Under the pieces are notes generated by a model. It searched no databases. It was given only the letters and a program-made list of their open reading frames with translations, and was not told where the DNA came from. Shown here one piece after another: positions 17,951 through 38,033 of a stretch of DNA of 64,000 nucleotides. Position numbers and translations under genes: made by a program. The DNA is taken from NCBI GenBank assembly GCA_024403515.1, contig JAKSRS010000003.1:62001-126000 (forward strand), written 5' to 3'. Positions within the stretch are counted from its first letter, which is position 1, and the number at the start of each line of letters is the position of its first letter. This DNA comes from Lachnospiraceae bacterium (lineage in GTDB: Bacteria; Bacillota; Clostridia; Lachnospirales; Lachnospiraceae).

Positions 17951-18247
17951 TTATTTCTTTATAAAATCTAAAAGTGACTTTCCGTTTACTGCGTCAAATA
18001 TGTCGGCTTTTTCAATTCTCATATCGTTTAGCCATTTTACCGCTTCATCTTTTCCTTCAACGGTCATTGGAAATATCTTACTTATTTTTACATCATCTTC
18101 TGTATTTATGAAATTAAAGGGTTCTGGCCAGATATATGCAAGAAGGCCTTCGTCGGTTTTGGTAAGTCTGTAGCGCATACCTGTATCGGAACCAAAGAAG
18201 GGTTCTTTCTTTATGTAGTTTAAGGAAACTGTAGCTGAATCTATCAT
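17951..18247 (-). CDS. 98-aa protein of unknown function, coupled to GH2
   Basis: The ATG overlaps the GH2 stop by 4 bases and has AAGGTGG 7 bases upstream, so it is probably a real, translationally coupled gene. The product has no signal peptide or membrane segment. It has a compact aromatic N-terminal half (YRLTKTDEGLLAYIWPEPFNF) and ends in a lysine pair. I do not recognise the family. Context suggests a cytoplasmic partner or accessory of glycoside metabolism. Confidence 0.6.
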   Translation of the reverse strand: MIDSATVSLNYIKKEPFFGSDTGMRYRLTKTDEGLLAYIWPEPFNFINTEDDVKISKIFPMTVEGKDEAVKWLNDMRIEKADIFDAVNGKSLLDFIKK

Positions 18248-20133: not shown

Positions 20134-20143
20134 ACAATAATCC

Positions 20144-20995
20144 TCATTTATTGAAATTGTTGTGTATGTTATAGGTTTCACGCCACTTTGTGGGCGATAG
20201 ACCCGTAGCGTGAGTAAAAGCGTTGGAAAAATTGTGTGAATCCGTAAAGCCAAGGCTGTAGCCAATCTGTGAAACGGGCTGAGAAGTTTCAGTCAGTAAA
20301 GCCTTGGCGTGTTGTGTCTTTTCATTAATTATATACTGCTTTAAGGAAATACCGCAGTGGTTTTTAAAAAATGTAGTCAGGTATTTTTCGTTGTAACCAA
20401 AATAGTCGGCTATCTCATAAACCTTCAAAGAATCCTGAATATGCCAGTTAATGTAGTCACAAATATCAGCAAAGGTCTGTTCGCCCTTAATCATTCGGCC
20501 ATAATTTTGGAAAGTCTTGGCTGATGCTGCTATCTCGGCAAGAATTGCCCCGACAAGGTAGCGGTTTAAGGTAACTTCCCTGTATCTTCTGTCAGAGTCC
20601 ATAAGCTGTTTCAATAAAATGATGATTCGATCAAGCGAAGCGGGCTTTCCCTGCACAGGAAAAACAAGGTGACCGGGAGTGTAGTCATAATCCTTTTCGA
20701 GGAAGGAATGGTCATTAGTCCCTTTATTGTAACTAAAATGCATCCAGTAAAAGGTTGCCCCGCCTTCTTTCCAGCCATGCTGAAAGCGTGTTGGCGGCAT
20801 AAGAAGGTACTGCCCTTCACTTACGCTATAATCTTCATTCTCAGAAGATATATATAAAGTTCCTTTTGTTACTATCATTAGTTCGTAATCCGTTAAGTCT
20901 CTTGTCATATGTATCCACTCAGAAGAAGGTGGAACGAACTGACCGCACCAGTGATAGTCAAACTCGAGACTGGAATCGAAATCTATCATTTTCAT
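20144..20995 (-). CDS. AraC family transcriptional regulator
   Basis: The start is ATG 20995, with AAGAGGTG 8 bases upstream. Upstream in-frame codons extend to 21103 but have no ribosome binding site and would use up the divergent promoter region. The 283-aa product has an N-terminal cupin ligand-binding domain (GQYLLMPPTRFQHGW) and two C-terminal AraC HTH motifs (KVYEIADYFGYNEKYLTTFF and QIGYSLGFTDSHNFSNAF). It probably senses a sugar and controls GH2 downstream and GH127 divergently. Confidence 0.85.
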   Translation of the reverse strand: MKMIDFDSSLEFDYHWCGQFVPPSSEWIHMTRDLTDYELMIVTKGTLYISSENEDYSVSEGQYLLMPPTRFQHGWKEGGATFYWMHFSYNKGTNDHSFLEKDYDYTPGHLVFPVQGKPASLDRIIILLKQLMDSDRRYREVTLNRYLVGAILAEIAASAKTFQNYGRMIKGEQTFADICDYINWHIQDSLKVYEIADYFGYNEKYLTTFFKNHCGISLKQYIINEKTQHAKALLTETSQPVSQIGYSLGFTDSHNFSNAFTHATGLSPTKWRETYNIHNNFNK

Positions 20996-21085
20996 ACCGT
21001 ATACACCTCTTATTTGATAATAATATAACCTTTTTACACCTAAAACAACCTTTGAGAATTTATTTTCACTTTCTTTTGACTGATA

Positions 21086-21119
21086 ATAAGGAAAACGACC
21101 CACGTTTAAGTGGGCTTAT
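21086..21119 (+). other. Leader hairpin in front of the GH127 gene
   Basis: A CCCAC/GTGGG stem (21099-21103 and 21110-21114) sits inside an ATAAG/CTTAT stem (21086-21090 and 21115-21119), ending immediately before the GGAGG ribosome binding site at 21119-21123. It may influence translation of GH127. No promoter could be assigned with confidence in 20996-21085. Confidence 0.45.
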
Positions 21120-21129
21120 GGAGGTTATC

Positions 21130-23022
21130 ATGGATACAAAGATAAAAAGTGTAAAACTGAATAATGTTTTGTTAAAAGACCCCTATTTTGTAAATGCCTT
21201 TTCAAAGGAAGTTGATTATCTTCTTTCTATAGATGATGATCGCATGCTTGCCGGTTTTAGAGAGAACGCAGGTCTTGATATGAAGGGTGCAACAAGATAT
21301 GACGGCTGGGAAGCCTTGTTAATCGGAGGACACACATTTGGTCACTATATGACTGCTCTTGTGCAGGCCTATGAATCCAAGACTTCAACCGGTGAGGAAA
21401 AAGAAAAACTCCTTTCAAAGCTTTATACCATTACAAACGGTCTTAAAGAATGTCAGGACGCCGTAAATACCGGTTTCATATTTGCGGGTAAAATCATTGA
21501 TAAAGATAACATCGAGAAGCAGTTTGATAATGTTGAAGAGTTAAAGGGTGAAATCTTTACTGAGGCATGGGTGCCTTGGTACACACTTCACAAGATTATC
21601 GAAGGCCTTGTAAGTCTTAGTAAGATTAGTGATGAGAAGCTTTCAAAGCTTGCAATTACTATTGTTGACCGTCTCGGGGACTGGGTTTATAAAAGAGTCT
21701 CATCCTGGGACGAAGAAACTCACAAAAAGATTTTCGTAATCGAATACGGCGGAATGAACGATTGCATGTATGACGTTTATAAGATAACCGGAAAGAAGGA
21801 ACACTTAGAAGCGGCACATGCTTTTGACGAAGAAGCTTTATTTGAAAAGGTTATGGCTTCAAAATCCGGAGAAAACGTGCTTGAAAATGTACATGCCAAT
21901 ACCACAATTCCTAAGTATTTAGGCGCTATTAACAGATACCTTGTTACAGGAGACAAAAAGTACTTTGATTATGTTGAAAAGTTCTGGAATTATGTAATGG
22001 AGGATCATACATATATAACAGGTGGAAACTCAGAATGGGAGCATTTTAGAAAGGACAGAATGCTTGATGCTGTTCGTACAAACTGCAACTGTGAAACTTG
22101 CAATGTATATAACTTTTTGAAGCTTACAAAGACTTTGTTTATGATTACAGGTGACGTTAAGTACGCTGACGCATACGATAATGCCTTTACAAACCAGATT
22201 CTTTCATCACAAAATCCTAAAACCGGTATGACAACATATTTCCAGCCCATGTCTTCAGGTTATTTTAAAACTTACAGTACAAGATATACCAAGTTCTGGT
22301 GCTGCACCGGTTCGGGTATGGAGAACTTTTCAAAGCTTGGAGACAGCTTTTACTACACATATGATGACGGTGTAGTCATTAATCAGTACGTTGCAATGAA
22401 TTTTAAGGCTTTAGATACTGAATTTGAAGTTGAGGCTGATCTTTTAAATGATGAAAACATAAAGATCACTTTAAAAGATGACTACAGCGGAAAACTTTAT
22501 TTAAGACTTCCTTCATGGCTTGGCGGAAAAGCTGAAATCAAGGTTGATAATAAGGAAATTTCTTTTAAAGAATGTGGATTAAATGGTAACGATAAAGGTT
22601 ATGCCCTTTTGGAAGGTTCTTTTGCCAAGGGAGTTACAATTACAGTTAATCTTCCTATGAAAGTTAAAGCATATTCGCTTCCTGATTCAGATAACACACT
22701 CGCATTTAAATACGGACCTTTCGTTTTAAGCGCATGCCTTGGAAGCAAGGATATGGAAGAAGGCTTAACAGGTGTTGATGTAACTATTCCTCAACAGAAG
22801 GTCTTTGAGAAGAAATACATTCCTTCTGAAAGCGAAGAAGTTAAGGTCTTAGCTACTGATGTAAAGAGCTTTGCCGGAAATATCAGTGAGTATTTTGCAA
22901 AAGAAAGTGGGGGAGAATATCCTACATTTGTCTTAAAGGGAACAGATTCAAATCTTACTTACATGCCTCATTTTGCACAGCATAAAGAACGTTATGGAAT
23001 TTACTTAAAGTTCATTGGTTAA
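21130..23022 (+). CDS. GH127 family beta-L-arabinofuranosidase
   Basis: ATG at 21130 follows ATGGAGGTTATC. The open frame from 20866 lies partly over the AraC gene and was rejected. The 630-aa protein has the GH127 zinc/catalytic motifs CNCETC (residues 319-324) and WCCTGSGMENF (Cys391, Cys392), matching the Glu-Cys and Cys-Cys ligands known from Bifidobacterium HypBA1. An all-alpha toroid is followed by beta domains. No signal peptide, so it cleaves arabinofuranosyl oligosaccharides inside the cell. It is divergent from AraC and GH2. Confidence 0.9.
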   Translation: MDTKIKSVKLNNVLLKDPYFVNAFSKEVDYLLSIDDDRMLAGFRENAGLDMKGATRYDGWEALLIGGHTFGHYMTALVQAYESKTSTGEEKEKLLSKLYTITNGLKECQDAVNTGFIFAGKIIDKDNIEKQFDNVEELKGEIFTEAWVPWYTLHKIIEGLVSLSKISDEKLSKLAITIVDRLGDWVYKRVSSWDEETHKKIFVIEYGGMNDCMYDVYKITGKKEHLEAAHAFDEEALFEKVMASKSGENVLENVHANTTIPKYLGAINRYLVTGDKKYFDYVEKFWNYVMEDHTYITGGNSEWEHFRKDRMLDAVRTNCNCETCNVYNFLKLTKTLFMITGDVKYADAYDNAFTNQILSSQNPKTGMTTYFQPMSSGYFKTYSTRYTKFWCCTGSGMENFSKLGDSFYYTYDDGVVINQYVAMNFKALDTEFEVEADLLNDENIKITLKDDYSGKLYLRLPSWLGGKAEIKVDNKEISFKECGLNGNDKGYALLEGSFAKGVTITVNLPMKVKAYSLPDSDNTLAFKYGPFVLSACLGSKDMEEGLTGVDVTIPQQKVFEKKYIPSESEEVKVLATDVKSFAGNISEYFAKESGGEYPTFVLKGTDSNLTYMPHFAQHKERYGIYLKFIG

Positions 23023-23043
23023 TTGTCCGATATATTATATACT
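23015..23043 (+). promoter_or_regulatory. Promoter for the HerA-like ATPase gene
   Basis: TTGGTT (23015-23020, overlapping the GH127 stop) and TATACT (23038-23043) are 17 bases apart. Confidence 0.5.
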
Positions 23044-23088
23044 GAGTGTAATGGCAATTACTAAATGAATAAAGGGAGATTCAATGAT

Positions 23089-24684
23089 ATGGTTAAAGAC
23101 GGAAAGATACTAATCGGTAAGGCTGGCGATCAGGATATTTATATTTATCCTAAGATGGCAAACCGTCACGGAATGATTTGTGGAGCAACCGGTACAGGTA
23201 AGACTGTAAGTCTTCGTGTAATGGCTGAGTCATTTTCAGACATGGGAGTTCCGGTATTTTTGGCCGACGTAAAAGGCGATTTGGCAAGCATGATTCTTGA
23301 GGGTGATTATAACGATAACATCCGAAAGCGCGTCGATTCTATGGGACTTGAAGATTATGGCTACAGTGTAACCGATTATCCCGTTAACTTCTGGGATTTG
23401 TATGGAGAAAAGGGTATTTCACTTCGTACAACAATTTCAGAGATGGGACCGCTTCTTTTAAGCCGTATCATAGATTTGAATGATACACAGACAGATATTT
23501 TACATATTATTTTTAAGATCGCGGATGATGAAGGTTTAATCCTTACAGACACCAAAGATCTTAAGGCTATGATTAATTATGTTGGCGAAAAGGCCAAAGA
23601 ATACAGCGCCGTATATGGTAACATCGCACCGGTAAGTCTTGCAGCTATTACAAGAGGTGTCGTTGCAATGGAAACAGCAGGAGCTGACATTTTCTTTGGT
23701 GAGCCTGCTTTAAATATTAGGGACTGGTTTAGAACAGATATGGATGGAAGAGGCTTCATTCAGATTCTTGACGCACAGAAACTTTTCCTTAATACAAAGC
23801 TTTACTCAATCTTCCTTCTTTGGTTATTAAGTGAACTTTTTGAAACACTTCCCGAAGTTGGAGACCCTGCAAAGCCTCGAATGGTATTCTTCTTTGATGA
23901 AGCACACCTTCTTTTTAATAATGCAAACAAGGTTTTACTTGAAAAGATTGAGCAGGTTGTAAAGCTTATTCGTTCTAAGGGTGTTGGTATTTATTTCATA
24001 ACTCAGAATCCCAAGGATATTCCTGACGGGGTTCTTGCCCAGCTTGGAAACAAGATTCAGCATGCCCTTCACGCTTACACTCCTAAGGAGCAGGAAGGCG
24101 CCAAGGCAGCTGCTAAGGCTTTTAGAGAAAATCCTGATTTTAATACCTTTAACGTATTGCAGGAACTTTCAACCGGTGAAGCTTTAGTTTCGGTTCTTGA
24201 TCCGGATGGTATTCCTACAGTAGTTGAAAGAACTAAAATTCTCCCTCCTCAGAGCCGTCTTGGTACTCTTGATGATGGCGCAAGAGATTCTTTCATTAAG
24301 GAGAGCGAGTTCTATATCAAGTACTATGAAGCAGAGGATAATGATTCCTGCTACGAATTCATGCAAAGACGTAATCTTGAACTTTCAAAAGAGCAGGAGA
24401 GGGCTGCAGAAGAAAAGGCTTTATTAAAAGAGCAGGCAGCAGCCGATAAACTTGCAGCCAAGGAGGAAGAAAAGCGCCTTAAGGAAGCTGAGAAGAAGAA
24501 AGCTGCTCAGGGTAAGGCTGTTAAATCCGCTGCTAAATCTGTTGCTTCAACAACAGCAGGAACTATCGGTCGTGAAATCGGTAAGAGTATGGGTAGTGCC
24601 GGAGGTAAATTCGGTAAGTCCCTTGGTGGTAATGTAGGTGCCGCTTTAGGACGTGGCATTATTGGTACATTGTTTAAATTATAA
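23089..24684 (+). CDS. HerA-like P-loop ATPase (DUF853/YjgR family)
   Basis: ATG 23089 has AAAGGGAG about 10 bases upstream; the earlier in-frame ATG at 23065 has none. The 531-aa product has Walker A GATGTGKTVSLRV near residue 40, Walker B MVFFFDEAHLLF near 275-290, and the DUF853 segment FITQNPKDIPDGVLAQLGN. The C-terminal 110 residues form a charged coiled coil rich in Lys, Glu and Ala, ending in a Gly/Ala/Ser-rich tail (GRGIIGTLFKL). The family is related to HerA/FtsK translocases, but its cellular role is not known. Confidence 0.85.
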   Translation: MVKDGKILIGKAGDQDIYIYPKMANRHGMICGATGTGKTVSLRVMAESFSDMGVPVFLADVKGDLASMILEGDYNDNIRKRVDSMGLEDYGYSVTDYPVNFWDLYGEKGISLRTTISEMGPLLLSRIIDLNDTQTDILHIIFKIADDEGLILTDTKDLKAMINYVGEKAKEYSAVYGNIAPVSLAAITRGVVAMETAGADIFFGEPALNIRDWFRTDMDGRGFIQILDAQKLFLNTKLYSIFLLWLLSELFETLPEVGDPAKPRMVFFFDEAHLLFNNANKVLLEKIEQVVKLIRSKGVGIYFITQNPKDIPDGVLAQLGNKIQHALHAYTPKEQEGAKAAAKAFRENPDFNTFNVLQELSTGEALVSVLDPDGIPTVVERTKILPPQSRLGTLDDGARDSFIKESEFYIKYYEAEDNDSCYEFMQRRNLELSKEQERAAEEKALLKEQAAADKLAAKEEEKRLKEAEKKKAAQGKAVKSAAKSVASTTAGTIGREIGKSMGSAGGKFGKSLGGNVGAALGRGIIGTLFKL

Positions 24685-24694
24685 TATTTCCTGT

Positions 24695-24729
24695 AACGGG
24701 CCGGCGAATTGCATGGCCCGTTATTTTTT
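24695..24729 (+). terminator. Intrinsic terminator after the HerA-like gene
   Basis: The stem AACGGGCC (24695-24702) pairs with GGCCCGTT (24715-24722), followed by ATTTTTT. The T-run abuts the -35 element of the toxin-antitoxin promoter. Confidence 0.85.
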
Positions 24730-24759
24730 GACAAATACACGACAACGTGTTAATGTCAA
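24728..24759 (+). promoter_or_regulatory. Promoter embedded in a 32-bp dyad operator (HTH-MNT/HEPN operon)
   Basis: TTGACA (24728-24733) and TAATGT (24751-24756) are spaced 17 bases. The same stretch is a dyad: outer arms TTGACA and TGTCAA (24754-24759), inner arms ACACG (24737-24741) and CGTGT (24746-24750) around ACAA. Eleven of 14 positions per arm match. A protein bound here would cover both -35 and -10, so autorepression by the HTH-bearing antitoxin is likely. Confidence 0.7.
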
Positions 24760-24779
24760 TATAGAAGGAGAACACAGTA

Positions 24780-25322
24780 ATGGATGAATATTATACAGTG
24801 TCTGAATATGCCGATTTGACAGGAAGAGATCCAAGTCACATAAGAAGAATGCTTATATACGGTAAGATAGCAGGTGAAAAACTAGGTAAACAATGGATTA
24901 TTCCAAAAGGTACAGAGTATCCTAAAGACAATAGAGTAAAGAGTGGAAATTATCGAAACTGGCGAAGGAAAACAAACGATAATCCAATTGATGCGGAATT
25001 TTTTGCTTTGTTAAACAGAGTATGTAAATCGCTCAGTGACTTATATGGAGAGAAGCTTGAAAAAGTGATTTTGTACGGATCTTATGCCAGAGGAGAGCAG
25101 ACGAAAGAATCTGACGCTGATTTAGCTGTTATTCTTCGAGAAGATGTTACTGAAGATATACACGATAAAATGATTGACATTTTAGTAGATTATGAACTTG
25201 AGTGTGGCGTGACGCTTTCAGCAGTTCAAATAGACAATGCCAATTATATTCAATGGAATAAAACGCTTCCATACTATAAAAATATCGAAAAAGAAGGAAT
25301 TATCCTATGGAAAGCAGCATAG
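24780..25322 (+). CDS. MNT-type nucleotidyltransferase antitoxin with N-terminal HTH
   Basis: ATG 24780 follows AGAAGGAG by 9 bases. The 180-aa protein joins an excisionase/MerR-like winged HTH (residues 1-45: YYTVSEYADLTGRDPSHIRR, then GKIAGEKLGKQWIIPKG) to a minimal nucleotidyltransferase with a complete GSx10DxD motif (Gly100-Ser101, Asp112, Asp114). In MNT/HEPN (type VII) systems this enzyme neutralises the HEPN ribonuclease by nucleotidylation. The HTH would bind the dyad at the promoter. It overlaps the HEPN gene by 16 bases, so the two are coupled. Confidence 0.85.
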   Translation: MDEYYTVSEYADLTGRDPSHIRRMLIYGKIAGEKLGKQWIIPKGTEYPKDNRVKSGNYRNWRRKTNDNPIDAEFFALLNRVCKSLSDLYGEKLEKVILYGSYARGEQTKESDADLAVILREDVTEDIHDKMIDILVDYELECGVTLSAVQIDNANYIQWNKTLPYYKNIEKEGIILWKAA

Positions 25323-25738
25323 TTGAACTATCCCGGTATAGGTATGAGGCGAGCCTGGAAGCATTATCGGATGCCAAAATTATGTATAAAAATGGTAGAT
25401 ATAAAAACGCATTGAATCGTTCTTATTACTCCATTTTTCACAGTATACGTGCTATTAATTCGTTAGATGGATTTGATAGTAGTAAGCATAGTGGGGTTAT
25501 TGCACACTTTAATCAGGAATACGTGAAAAAAGGAATTTTTTCAAAAGAGGCATCAAAACTGATAAAACTTGCCGCCGAAAATCGTGAAAAGGCTGATTAT
25601 TTAGACTTTTTTGTGGCATCTAAAAGTGAAGCAGAAAAGCAGATTGAAAGAGCTTGCAGATTTAATAAAATGATAAAAGACTACCTCGTGGAGGAAGGAA
25701 TTCTGGAACCTACACAGATTAATGAACTTAATCTGTAG
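25307..25738 (+). CDS. HEPN-domain toxin (putative ribonuclease)
   Basis: The 143-aa, mainly alpha-helical protein is of the HEPN superfamily with the catalytic Rx6H motif RSYYSIFH (Arg38, His45). It starts inside the 3' end of the MNT gene, the normal order for MNT/HEPN pairs. In the studied HepT toxins the antitoxin modifies a tyrosine two residues after the histidine (HxY); here that position is Ile (FHSI), so any modified residue must differ, perhaps Tyr40 or Tyr41. Toxicity is inferred from family and context. Confidence 0.8.
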   Translation: MESSIVELSRYRYEASLEALSDAKIMYKNGRYKNALNRSYYSIFHSIRAINSLDGFDSSKHSGVIAHFNQEYVKKGIFSKEASKLIKLAAENREKADYLDFFVASKSEAEKQIERACRFNKMIKDYLVEEGILEPTQINELNL

Positions 25739-25772
25739 ATGTAATAGAATAATTATAAAAGGGAGAAAATTA

Positions 25773-26297
25773 ATGAGAGACTTACTTTTAGTAGTTGATA
25801 TGCAGAACGATTTTATAGATGGGGCGCTTGGAACCAAGGAAGCCGTAGCTATAGTTCCTAATGTTAGGGAAAAAATCGAGAACTTTGATGGAACAGTTCT
25901 TTTTACCAGAGATACACATGAAAAGAATTATTTAGAGACACAAGAAGGAAAGAATCTTCCGATAGAGCATTGCATCAGAGGAACAAAGGGCTGGGAAATA
26001 AGAGAAGAGCTTGAGAAGCTTAGAACTACACAGGCAATAGACAAGGTGACTTTTGGTTCCAAAGAGCTTGGAGACATTCTTTTGAAATTAAATGAGCAAG
26101 AACCTATAAGTCATATCACTGTTATTGGTCTTTGCACAGATATTTGTGTAATTTCTAATGTTATGATTGCCAAGGCATTTTTACCTGAAGTGCCGATAAC
26201 CGTAGATGCCAAATGCTGTGCGGGGGTGAGTGTAGAATCACACCTCAATGCGCTTGAAGCTATGAAGGTTTGTCAGGTAGAAGTTGTAGGAATGTAA
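25773..26297 (+). CDS. Isochorismatase-family cysteine hydrolase (nicotinamidase-like)
   Basis: ATG 25773 has GGGAG 7 bases upstream; the longer frame from 25722 overlaps the HEPN gene and lacks a site. The 174-aa protein has the catalytic triad pattern Asp9 (VVDMQNDF), Lys91 (DKVTFGS) and Cys121 (GLCTDICV). Members hydrolyse nicotinamide or related amides. Small size and GLCTDICV favour a nicotinamidase-like role in NAD salvage, but the substrate is not proven. It shares the strand and close spacing with GH5 downstream. Confidence 0.85.
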   Translation: MRDLLLVVDMQNDFIDGALGTKEAVAIVPNVREKIENFDGTVLFTRDTHEKNYLETQEGKNLPIEHCIRGTKGWEIREELEKLRTTQAIDKVTFGSKELGDILLKLNEQEPISHITVIGLCTDICVISNVMIAKAFLPEVPITVDAKCCAGVSVESHLNALEAMKVCQVEVVGM

Positions 26298-26320
26298 AAG
26301 TAGGGGGAATTTAGGAGAAA

Positions 26321-27901
26321 ATGAGTAATAAGAGGATAAAAGGACTGGCCATGATTCTTGCACTTACATTGTGCTTGTCATCTTGTGGTCAGAAATCAGT
26401 TGAAAACGTAAACGAAACCAGCACTTCTATTGTTTCATCGGAGGCAAAAGAAATATCTTCAAAGAATGATAAGTCCTCTGAGGAAGTAACTGCTATTGTG
26501 GAAAGCACTAAAGATGAGGTTAGCGAAGAAGTTGTAGAAGAAGCTGATAAAGAAAACCCAAACGGGGAAAACGAAAAAGAGAGCGAAGATGAAGCATCCG
26601 AGGATGTACCCCAAAAAGAGGTACGTGAAATAAAGGCACCTTCTAACAGCGGCCGACTTCACGTTGACGGAATCGATATAAAGAATGAAAACGGCGAGAA
26701 GGTGCAGCTTAAAGGTCTTAGTACACATGGTCTTGCCTGGTATCCTTCATATGTAAACAATGATCTTTTTCATGAGTTTCGAAATGAATGGAACTGTAAC
26801 GTAATCCGACTTGCCATGTATACGGAAGAATACGGCGGATATGTAAGTGGCGGAAACCGGAAAGAGTTAAAAGAGCTTATAGACAGCGGAGTCAGGCTTG
26901 CAAGGGACAATGATATGTATGCCATCATTGACTGGCATATTCTTTCAGATGGTAATCCCAATAAAAACAAAGATGCTGCCAAGGAATTTTTCAAGGAAGT
27001 CTCTGATAATTACAAATATTATAACAATGTAATATATGAAATCTGCAATGAGCCAAATGGTGGTACCAAGTGGAAAGATATTAAGGCTTACGCCGAGGAA
27101 GTAATACCTGTAATAAGAGAAAATGACGAAAGCGCAATCATTCTTGTGGGTACACCTAACTGGTCGCAGTTTGTAGACGAAGCTGCAAAAGATCCTATTG
27201 AAGGGTATGACAATATCATGTATACGCTTCACTTTTATGCTGATACGCATAAAGACGATCTTCGCAAAACAATGACTAAGGCTTTAAAGGATGGTCTTCC
27301 AATCTTTGTAAGTGAGTACGGAATTTGCGATGCTTCAGGAAATGGTGCCATAAACGAGAAGGAAGCTCAAAAGTGGATGGACCTTATGGATAAGTACAAC
27401 ATCTCTTCCTGTGCCTGGAACATTTCCAACAAAGGTGAAACAAGTGCTATATTTGGCAGCTGGACTGATAAAACACATGGCTTCAAAAGTGATGATTTAT
27501 CACCATCAGGCAAATGGGTTTACAGTATGCTTACCGGAAATAGTATGATTGAGTCTTCTTCTGATAAAGATGAGCCTGATGATAAGGAAGAATTTAAAGA
27601 AGATACCGAGGCTGTAAAAATTGTAGAAGGTGATCTGGTATTTTATCTTAAAGAGGTAAATTCCTGGGGTTCAGAAGAAGGAACCTGTCACCAGTTTGAA
27701 CTTACGGTTGTAAATAACGGAAGCGATGTTTCTAACTGGAGCGTAGATATTTCTTTTGACAGTGATATAACCTTAAAGGATGGCTGGTGTGGTATCTATT
27801 CTGAAAAGGGTAAAGTTCTTTCTGTTTCAAATGAGTCCTATAACGGACAGATTAAAAAGGGCGGCGCCACAAAAGACATAGGTTTTATAATTGTATATTA
27901 A
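26321..27901 (+). CDS. Secreted lipoprotein endoglucanase: GH5 plus CBM2-like domain
   Basis: The 526-aa protein begins with a lipoprotein signal (LSSC, Cys22). Then comes an acidic Ser/Glu/Asp linker (about residues 25-110), a GH5 TIM barrel starting near VQLKGLSTHGLAWYP with acid/base ICNEPNG (Glu244) and nucleophile SEYGICD (Glu332), a second acidic linker, and a C-terminal CBM2-like beta domain (about 438-526) with WSVDISF, ESYNGQI and a Cys pair. It would cut cellulose or beta-glucan at the cell surface. A terminator follows directly. Confidence 0.9.
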   Translation: MSNKRIKGLAMILALTLCLSSCGQKSVENVNETSTSIVSSEAKEISSKNDKSSEEVTAIVESTKDEVSEEVVEEADKENPNGENEKESEDEASEDVPQKEVREIKAPSNSGRLHVDGIDIKNENGEKVQLKGLSTHGLAWYPSYVNNDLFHEFRNEWNCNVIRLAMYTEEYGGYVSGGNRKELKELIDSGVRLARDNDMYAIIDWHILSDGNPNKNKDAAKEFFKEVSDNYKYYNNVIYEICNEPNGGTKWKDIKAYAEEVIPVIRENDESAIILVGTPNWSQFVDEAAKDPIEGYDNIMYTLHFYADTHKDDLRKTMTKALKDGLPIFVSEYGICDASGNGAINEKEAQKWMDLMDKYNISSCAWNISNKGETSAIFGSWTDKTHGFKSDDLSPSGKWVYSMLTGNSMIESSSDKDEPDDKEEFKEDTEAVKIVEGDLVFYLKEVNSWGSEEGTCHQFELTVVNNGSDVSNWSVDISFDSDITLKDGWCGIYSEKGKVLSVSNESYNGQIKKGGATKDIGFIIVY

Positions 27902-29078: not shown

Positions 29079-29107
29079 TTTACGTTATTATTTTATTGAA
29101 TTATAAT
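29079..29107 (+). promoter_or_regulatory. Promoter for the tldD-tldE-radical SAM operon
   Basis: TTTACG (29079-29084) and TATAAT (29102-29107) are separated by 17 bases, about 33 bases before the GAGGAGG site of tldD. Confidence 0.65.
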
Positions 29108-29146: not shown

Positions 29147-30532
29147 ATGTTAAGTAATTTTCTTGAAGGAAGCGAGTCTTTATTCGGTTCAGATGTAAGA
29201 ACTGAACTTAGAGCGCAGGAAAATATCAGAACAAGCGTAATGCTTCAGAAGGGAAATCTTGTCTCAAATACCAGAGGCGTAACTTCCGGTGTTAGTGCAA
29301 GAGTATGCAAAAACGGAGTGTATGGTTTTGCATCAATTCCCGAGCTTAGTAAAGAAGCAGCTAATAAGGTTTTAATGGAAGCAACAAAGAACGCACAGTT
29401 TCTTGCAATGCACACAAGTGCAAGCGATTCATACAAGGGAGTGTACACGAATAAAACAATATCTCCCGATAGAGAAATCGTTACAACAGCACAGAAGGAT
29501 ATCATTGATTACTGTAGAGAGGTTGACGAATATATAGTTAAAAACTGTCCCAACCTTGCAAGCCGTGGGGTAAGATATTCTTCAGACTCTATGGATAAGA
29601 TTATTCTTACAAGCGATGCAGCTTCAGGACACGTTGTTTATCCAAGAAGCTACATCTATATTAATGCAACAGCTACAGGTGCAGACGGAGCTCCAATAGA
29701 TCACTATGATGTAGTAGGTGGAGTAGGAAGCTTTGATGATTATTTCAAGGACTTTTCCAAGATTCAGGAAACAGTCGACAAAGTATATGAAGAAGTAATG
29801 AAGAAAAAAGAAGGTGTATACGCCAAGGCCGGTCTTAGAGATGTAATTTTAGGAGGAATTCTTCCAGGAATGCTTGCTCATGAGGCAGTTGGTCATACTG
29901 TTGAAGCAGACCTTGTAAAGGGTGGTTCAGTTGCAGGTCCCTTCCTTAATAAAGAGGTTGGTTCTGAACTTGTATCAATGGTTGACTTCGCAAATACAGC
30001 TTTTGGTCAGCAGACACCCCTTCCGGTATATCTTGATGACGAAGGTATTGTTGCCAAGGATCAGGTATTAATTGAAAAAGGTATCCTTAAAGGATATATG
30101 AATAATCGCGATTCAGCTAATGAATACAACATGACACCTAATGGAAATGCCAGAGCATGGGATTTCTCTGATGAACCTTTGATTCGTATGAGAAATACAG
30201 CAGTACTTCCCGGCCAGAGCAAGCTTGAAGACATGATTGCTTCAATTGATGATGGTTACTATTTATTAGGAACAAACAACGGTCAGGCCGACTTAACCGG
30301 TGAGTTTATGTTTGGTGTTTCTTTTGGATACGAAATCAAGCATGGTAAGCTTGGAAAAGCCATCTTAGACACCACAATTTCAGGTGTTGCATTTGAGATG
30401 TTAAAGACCGTAGATATGGTTTCTGACGACTTTACATGGTCAAGCTCAGGATTCTGTGGAAAGAAACAGATTATGCCGTGCGGACTTGGCGGACCGGCAA
30501 TTAAATGTAAGGTTACAATGGGAGGTCGCTAA
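29147..30532 (+). CDS. tldD: TldD-type metalloprotease subunit
   Basis: The 461-aa protein has the TldD metal motif HEAVGH (HExxxH, residues 245-250) and the family blocks DLTGEFMFGVSFGYEIKHGK and GKKQIMPCGLGGPAIKC. TldD and TldE form a heterodimer that cleaves unfolded peptides, including microcin B17 leader and CcdA in E. coli. ATG 29147 follows GAGGAGG. It is the first gene of a four-gene run with tldE, a radical SAM enzyme and a Cys-tailed membrane protein, which makes a peptide-processing role plausible. Confidence 0.9.
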   Translation: MLSNFLEGSESLFGSDVRTELRAQENIRTSVMLQKGNLVSNTRGVTSGVSARVCKNGVYGFASIPELSKEAANKVLMEATKNAQFLAMHTSASDSYKGVYTNKTISPDREIVTTAQKDIIDYCREVDEYIVKNCPNLASRGVRYSSDSMDKIILTSDAASGHVVYPRSYIYINATATGADGAPIDHYDVVGGVGSFDDYFKDFSKIQETVDKVYEEVMKKKEGVYAKAGLRDVILGGILPGMLAHEAVGHTVEADLVKGGSVAGPFLNKEVGSELVSMVDFANTAFGQQTPLPVYLDDEGIVAKDQVLIEKGILKGYMNNRDSANEYNMTPNGNARAWDFSDEPLIRMRNTAVLPGQSKLEDMIASIDDGYYLLGTNNGQADLTGEFMFGVSFGYEIKHGKLGKAILDTTISGVAFEMLKTVDMVSDDFTWSSSGFCGKKQIMPCGLGGPAIKCKVTMGGR

Positions 30533-30534
30533 TA

Positions 30535-31836
30535 ATGGAAAGATTAGTTAATGTTACTTCTGCAACCGTTGAAAAGCTTAAAAACAAAGGTGCAGATTTT
30601 GGATATGTTTGCGCATACGATCACGAAAAGAAAGAATTTAATGTTGAAGGAAATAAGTTTTCTTTATTTAGAACAACCTTCAATAATTCAATGGATATAT
30701 GCGTTTATAAAGACAAGAAGAAGGGTTCAGTAAATATCAATAACCTTTCAGAAGAATCAATCGACGAAGCTTTGGAGAACAGTTTTTCTTTTGCAAAAGA
30801 AGGAAACGAGGATGAGGCGTATGCTATCTTTCCAAAGCAGGAAAATAAAAACTTCGTAAAAGGCCTTAAAGAATCCGACTCCGAAGAGTTCTTTAAAAGA
30901 TGCGAAGAACTTTTAGCGGACATTGAAAAGAAATATCCTAAGATTTTGATTTGTCTTATGATTTGTTCTTTTGATAAGACAAGATGTGCTTATGAGAATA
31001 CAAACGGAACAAAGTACACTGAAGAAGAAGGTTATTATAACATCGTTTTGGAATTTTCAGCCAAAGAAGGTGATGAGGTTACTTCATTAAATTACTTTGG
31101 ATTCCCTTGTGTTTCTCTCGACAAGCCTTTTATTGAAAACCCTGTTGTGTACACAAAGCTTGATGAATGCTGCAAGCTTCTTGGCGCTAAGCCTTTAGAT
31201 GGAAAGATGGAAGATCCTACAGTTATATTTACACCTGACTGTCTTTCAGACATGCTTGGTTACTTCTATAATTCATTCATTGGAGAAGAATCCATTATAG
31301 ATAAGACCTGTTTATGGTATGACAAGCTTAATGAAAAACTTGTAGATGAAAGATTTACTTTATCCATCAAACCTTTGGATGAAAGAATTCTTGGAGGACA
31401 GAACTTTACTACTCAGGGACGTGATACATGGGATTACGATGTTATTAAAAACGGCGTATTAAAGGCATTCCCCATTTCCCTTTATGCCGCAAATAAGTCA
31501 GGTTTTGAACCTGCACCATGTATGTCATATATTCCTGTTGTGGAAGCCGGGGATGTGTCTATTGATGAGATAATTAAAAACACTAAAAATGGTATTATAG
31601 TAGGAGGCTATTCAGGTGGACATCCTGCAGCAAACGGTGAATTTTCCGGTATTGCCAAGTCAAGTTTTCTTGTTAAGGATGGAAAGGTTGAAGGTCCTGT
31701 AAGCGAAGCAATGATTAGCGGTAACTTTGTAACAATGTTAAATAACATTGTTGGTTTATCTAAAGAACTTTTCTGCGACGGAAATAAGGTTATGCCTTAT
31801 CTTGCATGCAAAGAAATTGTCGTAGCAGGAAAGTAA
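30535..31836 (+). CDS. tldE: TldE/PmbA-type partner subunit
   Basis: The 433-aa protein starts 2 bases after tldD. It has the PmbA/TldE layout: a long N-terminal domain, then FTTQGRDTWDYDVIKNG and a C-terminal glycine-rich block (IIVGGYSGGHPAANGEFSG) with family-typical FLVKDGKVEGPVSEAMISGN. TldE lacks the HExxxH motif, as here, and completes the substrate cage of the TldD dimer. Confidence 0.9.
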   Translation: MERLVNVTSATVEKLKNKGADFGYVCAYDHEKKEFNVEGNKFSLFRTTFNNSMDICVYKDKKKGSVNINNLSEESIDEALENSFSFAKEGNEDEAYAIFPKQENKNFVKGLKESDSEEFFKRCEELLADIEKKYPKILICLMICSFDKTRCAYENTNGTKYTEEEGYYNIVLEFSAKEGDEVTSLNYFGFPCVSLDKPFIENPVVYTKLDECCKLLGAKPLDGKMEDPTVIFTPDCLSDMLGYFYNSFIGEESIIDKTCLWYDKLNEKLVDERFTLSIKPLDERILGGQNFTTQGRDTWDYDVIKNGVLKAFPISLYAANKSGFEPAPCMSYIPVVEAGDVSIDEIIKNTKNGIIVGGYSGGHPAANGEFSGIAKSSFLVKDGKVEGPVSEAMISGNFVTMLNNIVGLSKELFCDGNKVMPYLACKEIVVAGK

Positions 31837-31860
31837 TTTGGGAAAGATGAGGAAAAGAGA

Positions 31861-33237
31861 GTGAAAATACCTAAAAGAGTACTAAGGTATGCAGAGGAAA
31901 ACTTCAACGAAGTGGTGCATACCACACTTAATCCTGAGGGTCCCGGTGTAGTTAGAATTCACCTTATCCCCCCCAAGATTATTAATGGAGAGATTGGTTC
32001 AAGTGTAGCTATCATTAACGGGCAGGATATCGTTCCTGTTGGTCCTTCGTGGACCATTCTTTTGACAGAGTTCATAAAAGAAGTAAACAAGTACAGCGGA
32101 AAAGAAATCGCTGAAGGTGATTACGATACAATCTTAAATGAAACTGTAAAGAGCATGAAGAAGGTTTATCCTTTCATTGCTTCCAAAAGATTTAAAAATG
32201 ATATTTTTGTAATCATGAATACCTTTAAGCAGATTGCTTATGGCGAACCTGTTGATGAAGAGATTGGTTATCTTAGCATGGGCGAGTATGCGCCTATGAT
32301 GAGAGCACCTCACAGAATGGATCTTATGGTTAGTGCAATGACCAAAGAAGGAGTATGGCACTGCAACCAGAAATGTATCCACTGCTATGCTGCAGGACAG
32401 AAGCAGGCAGAAGAAAGTGAGCTTTCAACTCAGGACTGGTTTACTATTATTGATAAGTGTAAGGAAGTTGGTATTCCGCAGATTACTTTCACCGGTGGTG
32501 AGCCTACAATGAGAGATGATCTTGTTGATCTTATTGAACATTCAAGATGGTTCGTAACAAGACTTAATACTAATGGAATTAAGCTTACTTCGGATTTATG
32601 TAAAAAGCTTATGGATGCATCATTAGACAGCTGCCAGATTACTTTCTATTCATATGACAGTGAGATTCACAATAAGCTTGTTGGAGCCAATCAGTATGAA
32701 AGTACTGTTAAGGGTATTGAAAATGCTCTTGAAGCCGGAATTAATATTAGTATTAACACTCCTTTATGTTCATTAAACAAAGACTATGTAAAAACTCTTG
32801 AGTTTTTACATGAAAAAGGCGTTTCATTCGTTACATGTTCAGGACTTATTACAACAGGAAATGCAACCTTGGAAGCTTCAGAAAACTTACAGCTTTCTGA
32901 AGATGAGATGAAAGAAATACTTAGGGCAGCAGTAGAATACTGCTACGCAAACGGTATGGAAATCAGCTTTACTTCTCCAGGATGGGTTTCTGATGATTTC
33001 ATATCAGAATTAGGAATAAATCTTCCCAGTTGTGGTGCCTGCCTTAGCAATATGGCTATTACTCCCGGAGGAAATGTTGTTCCCTGCCAAAGCTGGCTTT
33101 CAGATGATGTATTAGGAAGCATGCTAACTGACAAATGGAGCGATATCTGGGAAAGTCCCATGTGCTCTTTAAGAAGAGACTATAGTGCCAAGATGCTTGG
33201 AGAATGTCCATTAAGGAGGAAAAACGATGAAGAATAA
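31861..33237 (+). CDS. Radical SAM enzyme with SPASM-like C-terminus
   Basis: The start is GTG 31861 behind GAGGAAAAGA. The 458-aa protein has an unusual N-terminal domain of about 165 residues, then CNQKCIHC (Cys168, 172, 175, the CxxxCxxC that binds the [4Fe-4S]/SAM cluster), TFTGGEPTMR (GGE motif), and a C-terminal cysteine region (SCGAC, GGNVVPC, SPMC, LGEC) resembling a SPASM/twitch auxiliary cluster. Such enzymes often modify peptides. Its 3' end carries the GGAGGAAAA site of the next gene, and the two overlap by 11 bases. The Cys-tail protein is therefore the first candidate substrate. That is inference. Confidence 0.85.
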   Translation: MKIPKRVLRYAEENFNEVVHTTLNPEGPGVVRIHLIPPKIINGEIGSSVAIINGQDIVPVGPSWTILLTEFIKEVNKYSGKEIAEGDYDTILNETVKSMKKVYPFIASKRFKNDIFVIMNTFKQIAYGEPVDEEIGYLSMGEYAPMMRAPHRMDLMVSAMTKEGVWHCNQKCIHCYAAGQKQAEESELSTQDWFTIIDKCKEVGIPQITFTGGEPTMRDDLVDLIEHSRWFVTRLNTNGIKLTSDLCKKLMDASLDSCQITFYSYDSEIHNKLVGANQYESTVKGIENALEAGINISINTPLCSLNKDYVKTLEFLHEKGVSFVTCSGLITTGNATLEASENLQLSEDEMKEILRAAVEYCYANGMEISFTSPGWVSDDFISELGINLPSCGACLSNMAITPGGNVVPCQSWLSDDVLGSMLTDKWSDIWESPMCSLRRDYSAKMLGECPLRRKNDEE

Positions 33238-34438
33238 ACTTAAAATCACTTTCCTTCTTCTTGCACTGTCCTTCGCTTTTATGTTTAACAAGACTGAAGC
33301 TTCAGCCAAGAAACTTGATGAAATTTTAAATTACACAATTATGGCCAATGTAAATTCTGATGCTACGGTAACACTTAATTACCACATTGACTGGAAGGTA
33401 TTAGACAGTAGTTCAGAAGGCCCTCTTGAATGGGTTAAGATTGGTATTCCAAATAACAAATACATATCATACAAGGCCAATAGCGCTACTATCGACAAGA
33501 TTTCACCTATGTCATCCGGTGGAGCATGGATGAGAATTGACTTTGACAGAAAGTATTACAAAGACGAAGTAGTAAGCTTTGACTTTGAAGTTGTTCAGGA
33601 TTACATCTATCAGGTTGATTACGATACCGAGGGTGAAACTGTTTATGAGTTTACTGCCGGCTGGTTTGATAACATGGATGTCGATCAGATAATGATTCTT
33701 TGGAATGCTGATAAGGCCTTAACATGGAGTCCGTCTGCAGAAATTGAAAATGGTTATCTAGTTTGGTCCGACAGACTTACTCCCAGTGAGAAATTTAAAG
33801 TGACTGTTACTTATCCAAATGATGCTTATGAATTTGATTTATCTAAGAATGTAGAATCACATTCTTCTTCATATTCTTCATCAAGCGATGATAGTGATGT
33901 ATCAGAAACAATTGCCGGACTCATATGTTTGATTTTTGGAGCATATCTGATTATAAAACCTATTACACTTATAGCCAGAGGCGTTTCAAACTACGCAAAT
34001 GGTGGCTCTTTTGGAGATACAACCAAGAAGTACACCAGAACTAAGATTGTATATTATCCGGTTTGTGAAGGCTGTGGCGGAACACGTGAAGAAGGTAAAG
34101 ATGTATGTGCTTTCTGCGGAAGAAGCATGATTAAGAGTAAGGAAGTAATCACTGAAGATGCTCTAAAGAATACTGAAAAGGCTGCTTCAAAGTTTACAAG
34201 AGAAGGAACATTCAGATATTCAGATTCTCCCAACACATACGTACATGTTCATGTAACTCACGTTCCAAGACCCAAGCCGTCATGTGCTCACAGTTCATGT
34301 GCCTGTGCAAGTTCATGTGCTTGTGCCTGCGCTTGTGCCTGTGCCGGTGGTGGACGAGCAGGATGTACAAACAAAGATTTCTACAATACAGATTTAAAGC
34401 TTAAACAGCTTGAACTTAAAGCGAAATATAAGAAATAA
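33227..34438 (+). CDS. Signal-anchored membrane protein with zinc-ribbon and Cys-Ala-repeat tail
   Basis: The 403-aa protein has, in order: a signal peptide (residues 1-27); an extracytoplasmic beta-rich domain of about 170 residues resembling DUF2207-type envelope domains; a Ser-rich linker; a membrane segment (about 226-250); a CxxC...CxxC zinc ribbon (CEGC 280-283, CAFC 294-297); and a tail in which nine cysteines fall within residues 353-380, including the alternating run CACACACAC, followed by GGGRAGC and a Lys-rich end. I do not recognise an assigned function. Coupling to the radical SAM gene suggests modification of the tail or metal/disulfide chemistry there. Confidence 0.8.
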   Translation: MKNKLKITFLLLALSFAFMFNKTEASAKKLDEILNYTIMANVNSDATVTLNYHIDWKVLDSSSEGPLEWVKIGIPNNKYISYKANSATIDKISPMSSGGAWMRIDFDRKYYKDEVVSFDFEVVQDYIYQVDYDTEGETVYEFTAGWFDNMDVDQIMILWNADKALTWSPSAEIENGYLVWSDRLTPSEKFKVTVTYPNDAYEFDLSKNVESHSSSYSSSSDDSDVSETIAGLICLIFGAYLIIKPITLIARGVSNYANGGSFGDTTKKYTRTKIVYYPVCEGCGGTREEGKDVCAFCGRSMIKSKEVITEDALKNTEKAASKFTREGTFRYSDSPNTYVHVHVTHVPRPKPSCAHSSCACASSCACACACACAGGGRAGCTNKDFYNTDLKLKQLELKAKYKK

Positions 34439-34443
34439 CTATT

Positions 34444-34505
34444 AAAAGCCATATCTTATAAATGTTAAAAAAATATTTTTAATATTTAGAGAATATGGCT
34501 TTTTT
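34444..34505 (+). terminator. Intrinsic terminator of the tldD-radical SAM operon
   Basis: AAAAGCCATAT (34444-34454) pairs with ATATGGCTTTT (34493-34503) and a T-run follows. An AT-rich inner hairpin fills the long loop. Confidence 0.8.
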
Positions 34506-36242: not shown

Positions 36243-38033
36243 TTATTCAGAATACACATATTCATATGGTTCAGTCAGGTTCTCTTCATCTGACGGATCC
36301 CATCCATATCGTTTAAACACTTCAAGAGTGTTTACCATAGTATCGGAAAGGATAAACTTATGATAACTATAGGAAGGAAAGTATGAAGCAGAAGCATCAG
36401 TTGTTTCAAATTCGATGAAAATTGCGTCATCAAAACTTGTTAAATCATATCTGTAGTTTCCTTCTTCAAGGTCTTTTATAAAGGCCTCATATACTTCCTG
36501 CAATTCCAAAGTCGCGTCCAGACCATATCCACGAACAATATTTCCCCAGGTACTTATGTAAGTAATCTCACCATTCTTGGTAATGTTTTTAGCTTCCTTT
36601 AACATTAAATACTGGTTAGACATGAAGTCTTTTAATGCATCAGAAGAAGGGAAATCTGCTTTAAAATCAGGAACACCAAGCATACAAGGGTAGGATCTGT
36701 TTATCATTCTTCCGTCTTTTAAATAGTACTTTATGCCGCAAATGTAATGTGAATTTGTAGCAACCTTGTAGGTATTCAAAGAAGCTTCCTTATCCTCGAT
36801 GAAATACTTGTGAAGATTTGTTGCAAGTTCAAAGGTATCCGGTGTGTCAAGTGTAATCATGGTATTGTCATAAGATACCGTTACAGCAGTGATTTCATCA
36901 ATATCGGGAACAAACTCTTCGGCATTAAATACGTCAAAAGAAGCAATAAAGCATATTATTATAAGTGCCGAAGATGTCGCTATTAAGCCTGGAAGAAGTT
37001 TCTTTTTAAATACAGCGAAAGTCTTGTTAAGAAGCATGATGGATGCATAGTAGCCAACAATACCAGAAATAACGACTAAAACTGACATTACAAGCTTGTT
37101 ATAGTAAATAGATGAAAAGCCCAAAAGGAAATACAAAAGCTCCGCTAGAGGTATTGCAACAATGCCTGAAACAATAGAGGTAAATACAGGCTTTAACCAT
37201 GAAACTGATATTGTATCTCCGGCAGATTCGCTTTTTCTTTTGGTATATATAAAGTAGCAAACTACAAGCAGTGCAATGGATACTAAGGTGTAAATATAGA
37301 CACAACCTGCCCCAAGAAGGTTGCTTGTCTTGGTAGTACTTGAAACATATAGCAAGGTGTTAGATATCTTAATAAAAGGAGAAAGAAATTCTGCAACACC
37401 TGCATAGTTTCCGGAGTAGCCATATATATAACCGCTTGCAAACACCTCAATAAGATATTCTACTCCGGCTGCCAGGGTATTGATTCCAACATATAAAAAT
37501 GGAAGGGCTAAAATATTACCGGTTATATGGGCAGACAAAGTTCCGATACTGAACATGATGATTGAAAGGCCAATAGTTACACTCATGAAAGTAAGCATAG
37601 CGCATACATCACCATTACCAAAATATATACCTATAAGTTCATAGAGAATTCCATATACCAAAACAGGAGCAATAAGCATCGTAAGTCCCGAAAGAACATT
37701 TGTAATGTAAAGGGCAGTTCTTGTGACAGGAATGGAATGCATAAGTGAAATGCTCTTAGCACTGTACATATAACTCCAAACTGCCATAGAGACAATTAGA
37801 GCATACATAAACATCAGTATACCTGAAACGTAGTCGGTTGATGAGAGGAACAAGTCTCTAATGGATAAAAAATTCAAATCTTCATCTAAAGTCTGTTTGT
37901 AATTAATAATGGAAACGAGTTTGCCTAGAGGAATCATAGCTGAGAAGAATACGGTGATCCCCCAGATAGGCCAAAATCTCGACATGTTTTTCCTATAAAT
38001 TGTCGGGCTAAAGAACGAGATCTTTGACTTCAT
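36243..38033 (-). CDS. ABC-2 type exporter permease (YtrC/D-like)
   Basis: The 596-aa protein has about ten hydrophobic segments in the first 350 residues, then a soluble C-terminal domain of some 220 residues that is likely extracytoplasmic. The N-terminus contains SKISFFSPTIYRKNMSRFWP, and SISLMHSIPVTRTALYITN is typical of ABC-2 permeases. AGGAGG lies 8 bases upstream of ATG 38033, and the gene overlaps the ATPase by 26 bases. It forms an exporter with that ATPase, probably for cell-envelope-active compounds. Confidence 0.75.
   Translation of the reverse strand: MKSKISFFSPTIYRKNMSRFWPIWGITVFFSAMIPLGKLVSIINYKQTLDEDLNFLSIRDLFLSSTDYVSGILMFMYALIVSMAVWSYMYSAKSISLMHSIPVTRTALYITNVLSGLTMLIAPVLVYGILYELIGIYFGNGDVCAMLTFMSVTIGLSIIMFSIGTLSAHITGNILALPFLYVGINTLAAGVEYLIEVFASGYIYGYSGNYAGVAEFLSPFIKISNTLLYVSSTTKTSNLLGAGCVYIYTLVSIALLVVCYFIYTKRKSESAGDTISVSWLKPVFTSIVSGIVAIPLAELLYFLLGFSSIYYNKLVMSVLVVISGIVGYYASIMLLNKTFAVFKKKLLPGLIATSSALIIICFIASFDVFNAEEFVPDIDEITAVTVSYDNTMITLDTPDTFELATNLHKYFIEDKEASLNTYKVATNSHYICGIKYYLKDGRMINRSYPCMLGVPDFKADFPSSDALKDFMSNQYLMLKEAKNITKNGEITYISTWGNIVRGYGLDATLELQEVYEAFIKDLEEGNYRYDLTSFDDAIFIEFETTDASASYFPSYSYHKFILSDTMVNTLEVFKRYGWDPSDEENLTEPYEYVYSE

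Follow-up and report, generated by a model that had tools for sequence, protein, structure and literature searches.

The locus described here raises the question of which of four consecutive genes belong to one pathway. It lies in a 64,000-nucleotide stretch of a Lachnospiraceae genome (assembly GCA_024403515.1, contig JAKSRS010000003.1), referred to below as the window, and the genes encode TldD, TldE, a radical S-adenosylmethionine (SAM) enzyme and a membrane protein with a Cys-Ala tail. A preliminary description, made from the sequence alone, had seen in them the logic of a ribosomally synthesized and post-translationally modified peptide (RiPP) pathway, with the radical SAM enzyme as modifier, a large membrane-anchored substrate in place of a small peptide, and TldDE as maturation protease. 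Comparative genomics strongly supports the modifier and its membrane-anchored substrate, and leaves the protease without support: the radical SAM and Cys-tail genes are a tight two-gene module with a patchy distribution in Clostridia and their relatives, and tldDE stands beside the pair in the window genome by chance and outside the module.

Pairing of the radical SAM and tail genes

Two samples were used, of 150 genomes from the family and 391 from the class, together with a search of the phylum for distant enzymes. A search with the enzyme alone recovered it from 13 of the 150 family genomes, with the tail protein adjacent in all 13; in the 12 family loci other than that of the window it directly adjoins the enzyme. 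The exact tail pattern at the DNA level occurs in 10/150 family genomes, all of them enzyme carriers and in each case about 1 kb from the enzyme, and the three carriers that fall outside this pattern have CACACASSGRAGC. When the ectodomain was searched without its tail, the same 13 family genomes were returned with one addition (G082), in which the ectodomain is present without the enzyme and without a Cys tail, and which is a natural negative control, if a single case. Of the 391 genomes of the class sample, the 11 that have the enzyme are precisely those that have the ectodomain (Fisher P 1.4e-21).

In all, 53 loci were selected by the enzyme, with no selection on the tail, which is visible in 49 of them and cut off by a contig end in four (L172, L179, L202 and L246); a tail gene with a Cys-Ala segment is present in all 49 uncut loci. 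This neighbourhood search with the radical SAM protein had been set beforehand as the test that might refute the proposal, and the pairing came through it intact. The reverse scan of the genome collection with the tail pattern gave at least 118 tail stretches; among the matches listed, the enzyme stands beside the tail in 99 of the 100 sites with enough flanking sequence, the enzyme gene coming first in 95 and the tail gene in 4. At some loci (L050, L127 and L175) a single enzyme is accompanied by two tail genes. Several of the loci come from metagenome assemblies, and the tail as an assembly artefact or as chance low complexity was ruled out by reversed-pattern controls, which gave 0 matches, and by the recurrence of the pairing across many genomes. 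Carriers among the matches listed include Lachnospiraceae, Oscillospiraceae, Acholeplasmatales and Eggerthellaceae; cultured gut bacteria such as Hungatella hathewayi are among them, and Gemmiger formicilis has the tail motif.

The phylum search brought in enzymes at 30–37% identity from other families, which we divide into groups B and C as distinct from group A, and each adjoins a membrane protein with a Cys-Ala segment (CACACA), except at the contig-cut locus L202. No third conserved gene accompanies the pair in group A, where an exporter, a peptidase and an MNIO were among those looked for in this role and none was found. The segment reads ...CVSCACACACAGG(R/G)GAGC in group B, and in group C it forms the end of the protein, as ...CACACACASSGGCT or ...CACACACAGGGGCT; the ectodomain is clearly related in group B and weakly so in group C. 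Group B loci have LemA and TPM genes downstream, and in L196, L200 and L201 the tail protein forms one in-frame fusion with the TPM domain protein encoded downstream, such that the Cys-Ala segment is internal and is followed by a hydrophobic stretch and then by the TPM domain; there is therefore no released C-terminal peptide in these proteins. TPM domains are usually extracytoplasmic and, if so here, the Cys-Ala segment of the three fusions would lie in the cytoplasm.

Some loci depart from the usual arrangement in other ways. In L178 (4660-7592) the tail gene appears to be split by an insert with plus-strand open reading frames (ORFs), transposase-like by position, the N-terminal part remaining next to the enzyme, with the Cys-Ala part about 2 kb off. 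The Cys-Ala segment and the ectodomain are in different reading frames in L044, L128 and L132, for which assembly error, decay and switching in the repetitive Gly-rich linker are candidate explanations. Group C loci L205, L207 and L208 have two more conserved secreted proteins (about 260–300 aa) encoded downstream of the enzyme, one of them weakly DUF4097-like.

The enzyme, the tail and the proposed modification

The radical SAM enzyme resembles peptide maturases in its fold. The three Cys residues of the CX3CX2C motif (C168, C172 and C175) and a match to the SPASM family PF13186 are found in 57/57 enzymes; the C-terminal cluster domain is reduced in group A, with C391, C409 and C449 invariant, and most enzymes of groups B and C retain CX2CX5CX3C. 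An AlphaFold2 model of the window enzyme (predicted local distance difference test score, pLDDT, 92.6) has as its best match in the PDB the sactipeptide maturase SkfB (6efn; Z 27.4, root mean square deviation (rmsd) 4.6 over 341 residues, 20% identity), followed by SuiB (Z 26.3), with anSME and CteB close behind and EpeE (8ai6) at Z 18.5. Residues 31-126 form three strands and then three helices, and the alignments with SkfB and SuiB begin at residues 19-32, that with SkfB at residue 31; the RiPP recognition element (RRE) of SkfB likewise has three strands and three helices (PMC6231123). The enzyme models as an RRE-like domain, a radical SAM barrel and a SPASM/Twitch domain. It reaches no NCBIfam equivalog: its best score is 103.6 bits where 500 are required, its score for the SkfB family is 63 of the 300 bits needed, and all listed family scores are far under the curated cut-offs.

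Nine of the 28 residues in the tail segment of the window protein, CAHSSCACASSCACACACACAGGGRAGC, are Cys. Ala occupies 238 of the 240 intervening positions in the 48 enzyme-selected loci with a readable CXC run, a count that required at least three Ala per run and so carries a mild selection. As Ala is near-invariant, and not merely any small spacer, this suggests that it takes part chemically. No Pfam or NCBIfam family was found for the tail protein at E 0.001, and a sequence search of solved structures with it gave nothing significant. DUF2207 (PF09972) matches 30 of 70 members weakly (best 1e-4, most under the Pfam cut-off) and the window protein at E 0.03, with 15 of the 24.4 bits required; zinc-ribbon Pfam matches occur in 10–11 of the 70. 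The ectodomain model is closest to Ost1/ribophorin I (8b6l_O; Z 15.7, rmsd 3.2 over 174) and then to the N-domains of M1 aminopeptidases (Z ~11.9), and the tail is disordered in the model. In 54 of 79 proteins Lys and Arg are more numerous after the last transmembrane helix than ahead of it, which is consistent with a cytoplasmic tail; a topology of signal peptide, ectodomain, one transmembrane helix and cytoplasmic tail is likely, and we hold it with good confidence.

Taken together, the two genes probably constitute a protein-modification module that acts on the tail of a membrane protein. The tail is very likely to be the substrate of the enzyme, and we infer that it is modified. In the mechanism that we propose, the cytosolic enzyme would recognize a membrane partner carrying a signal peptide, a beta-sandwich ectodomain and one transmembrane helix, and would abstract hydrogens from residues of the (Cys-Ala)n-Gly/Ser-Gly...Gly-Cys segment. 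Cys sulfur would then be bonded to neighbouring backbone carbons, for which Ala or Gly would be natural acceptors, to give a rigid crosslinked segment on a protein still anchored in the membrane. Cys thioether crosslinks in the tail are the most likely product, though we place this slightly below even confidence. The modified tail might act, for example, in metal or redox sensing, or in assembly with envelope proteins of the LemA/TPM type. It is conceivable, if on balance a little doubtful, that many crosslinks or stereochemical changes in a never-released Cys-Ala segment produce a permanent modified cytoplasmic domain with a redox, metal or electron-handling role, and with it new chemistry.

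Other readings of the pair can be weighed against the same evidence. The enzyme could carry out a different modification of Cys or Ala, such as a beta- or gamma-carbon thioether, a dehydrogenation or a carbon-carbon linkage, and thus a new reaction that is not sactionine formation. The gap between the enzyme and any NCBIfam equivalog points in this direction, as does the fact that Cys-Ala repeats are not described as a core motif in the papers found; nothing counts directly against such a reaction, but it is the less specific proposal, and we regard it as somewhat unlikely. An epimerase is unlikely. It would convert every repeat Ala to the D form, and the alternating L-Cys/D-Ala chain could fold as a beta-helix with its thiols on one face, as might suit the strict alternation of the segment with its near-invariant Ala spacers, the SPASM/Twitch-type core shared with EpeE and the extra Cys (C303) that is invariant in group A. 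Yet the Z scores of 24–27 for SkfB, SuiB and CteB are well above that of EpeE, nine conserved Cys point to sulfur chemistry, and groups B and C lack C303. As a candidate hydrogen donor of the epimerase type C303 was rejected for this lack of conservation.

Distinctly unlikely is an unmodified tail that binds a metal or cluster, with the enzyme acting on some other substrate or using the tail as a partner or cluster donor. The tail is dense in Cys, some members have a zinc ribbon as well, and Cys-rich tails without an assigned enzyme are known from other membrane proteins (PMC12452194). Such a role should nevertheless tolerate Gly, Ser, Thr or Val as spacers, where Ala is almost always found; moreover, the modelled enzyme has a peptide-maturase fold with an RRE-like domain, and no third gene points to another substrate. 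Least probable by far, and as a general rule largely refuted, is a four-gene RiPP pathway with TldDE as the protease that would cut back the modified tail to set a peptide free. The genes share a strand, close spacing and a terminator, and TldD/E matures several RiPPs, often from outside their clusters (PMC10885120), but tldDE adjoins the pair in no other locus, it is missing altogether from 9 of the 13 family genomes with the enzyme, there is no exporter, and the segment is internal in some relatives.

Several points weigh against a tail-modifying module. Its support consists of pairing, co-occurrence, domain architecture and sequence constraint, and the topology is based on hydropathy, the signal peptide and Lys/Arg counts. 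No PqqD/RRE Pfam match was obtained in the enzymes scanned. The 70-member tail alignment was gathered with the tail pattern, so that the invariance of the tail is partly built in, a bias that the enzyme-selected CXC count largely avoids. Lastly, L071 is an orphan tail in a genome with no enzyme match; its N-terminal part is missing, and for both reasons it looks like decay.

The locus and its neighbouring genes

The four ORFs of the window are all on the + strand (Table 1), and their translations and coordinates agree with the gene positions, the 11-base overlap and the Cys count of the preliminary description. Its assignments of a TldD/TldE pair and of a radical SAM protein with a SPASM-like C-terminus are likewise confirmed by Pfam (PF19289 and PF01523 for TldD/TldE; PF04055, 1.4e-20, and PF13186, 5.6e-6, for the enzyme). 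Only 2 bases separate tldD from tldE and 24 separate tldE from the radical SAM gene. A common promoter and terminator had been proposed for all four genes; the hairpin and T run at the end are strong, and the promoter-like site exists but is weak evidence, since the scan found such sites at the density of shuffled DNA (18 against 18.5 expected). A single transcript common to the four genes is plausible, and in the window species tldDE may be co-transcribed with the enzyme/tail pair.

Membership of tldDE in the module is another matter. Across the 12 other family loci, the 118 tail stretches among the matches listed and 16 same-genus loci it is never adjacent to the pair, and its presence in 4 of 13 enzyme-carrying as against 19 of 137 other family genomes is not significant (Fisher P 0.12). 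TldDE was accordingly rejected as a partner, and the suspicion already voiced in the preliminary description, that it might be adjacent by chance, proved sound.

Table 1. Features of the tldDE/radical SAM/tail locus, in window coordinates
Feature	Position	Strand	Basis or remark
Promoter-like site TTTACG-17-TATAAT, upstream of tldD	29079..29107	+	10/12 consensus matches
tldD	29147..30532	+	PF19289, 5.5e-45; neighbour, judged outside module
tldE/pmbA	30535..31836	+	PF19289, 6.9e-42; neighbour, judged outside module
Radical SAM/SPASM-Twitch enzyme, 458 aa, GTG start, presumed tail modifier	31861..33237	+	PF04055, PF13186; AlphaFold2 model
N-terminal RRE-like domain, residues 31-126	31951..32238	+	Model secondary structure; SkfB/SuiB alignments
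CX3CX2C cluster motif C168-C172-C175 (CNQKCIHC)	32362..32385	+	57/57 invariant
Auxiliary cluster region, reduced, Twitch-like; C391, C409, C449 invariant, C394, C435 frequent	33031..33207	+	
Radical SAM/tail gene overlap, 11 bases	33227..33237	+	ORF coordinates
Cys-Ala-tail membrane protein, 403 aa, presumed substrate	33227..34438	+	
Beta-sandwich ectodomain, residues 28-204, weakly DUF2207-like	33308..33838	+	Model, fold match
Transmembrane helix, residues 232-250	33920..33976	+	Hydropathy 2.27; helix 225-259 in model
Zinc-ribbon-like pair CEGC...CAFC, optional across family	34064..34117	+	
Cys-Ala segment, residues 353-380, 9 Cys in 28 residues, predicted disordered	34283..34366	+	Sequence; model pLDDT ~40
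KDFY motif directly after Cys-Ala segment	34373..34384	+	K invariant 70/70
Terminator hairpin, then T run	34444..34503	+	-23 kcal/mol, z -6.1

A second tldDE pair is present elsewhere in the genome of the window (G000:C2:30061-32052). Plant polysaccharide genes lie around the locus (18244-27901), including GH2-like and GH127-like genes and a GH5 cellulase with CBM2, and two long ORFs of the window, of 955 aa (59253-62120) and 596 aa (36243-38033), have no Pfam match.

Relation to known systems

The preliminary description knew of no system of this form, and we found no paper describing the pair in the open-access literature, searched for radical SAM enzymes with TldD, Cys-Ala, CACACACA, DUF2207 and Cys-rich membrane proteins; most subscription journals lie outside that coverage. 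The discovery of such motifs is illustrated by a survey of radical SAM RiPP pathways (PMC9062424), and the portions of it considered here do not mention the enzyme/Cys-Ala pair. The module is widespread yet patchy, as the family and class counts illustrate, and has no Pfam or NCBIfam family on its tail side. It is a compact and testable two-gene system with what is likely to be a new core motif, the Cys-Ala repeat. Should the tail prove to be modified, peptide chemistry of the radical SAM type would be at work on a lasting component of a membrane protein, and the RiPP concept would extend beyond secreted peptides to the maturation of proteins; if the modified tail is indeed never released, this would be a protein-modification system and not a natural-product pathway.

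The sactipeptide maturases SkfB, AlbA and CteB have the three-domain build that is modelled for the window enzyme, of RRE-like domain, radical SAM barrel and Twitch/SPASM domain, but act on short leader-core peptides that are released, whereas the module partner is a membrane protein of 300–490 aa whose Cys-Ala segment stays attached. The short leader peptide and released core that define sactipeptides and ranthipeptides are not what is found here, the window partner being a membrane protein. SuiB, which crosslinks Lys to Trp, also shares this modelled architecture; its substrate is a small streptide precursor without a Cys repeat, joined by a carbon-carbon linkage, and is unlike the Cys-Ala tail. 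TldD/TldE, known from microcin B17 maturation, is encoded just upstream in the window genome and is linked to the pair nowhere else among the loci examined. DUF2207 proteins share a weak likeness in the ectodomain, and the group B loci add TPM and LemA downstream; in contrast, the ectodomain relative without the enzyme, in G082, has no Cys tail.

The closest published concept is that of the TIGR04222 membrane proteins with Cys-rich tails, which are paired with MNIO (DUF692) enzymes (PMC12452194). TIGR04222 itself is absent among the 25 families listed in an NCBIfam scan of the 70 tail members, in which the window protein had no match. There too a membrane protein has a low-complexity, Cys-rich C-terminal tail and adjoins the gene of a metalloenzyme thought to modify it. 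The enzyme superfamily and the membrane protein are different, and those tails are predicted to be periplasmic and rich in Ser and Gly, whereas the tail described here is strictly Cys-Ala and probably cytoplasmic. The two systems thus share one logic, executed with another enzyme, on another protein and at another predicted side of the membrane.

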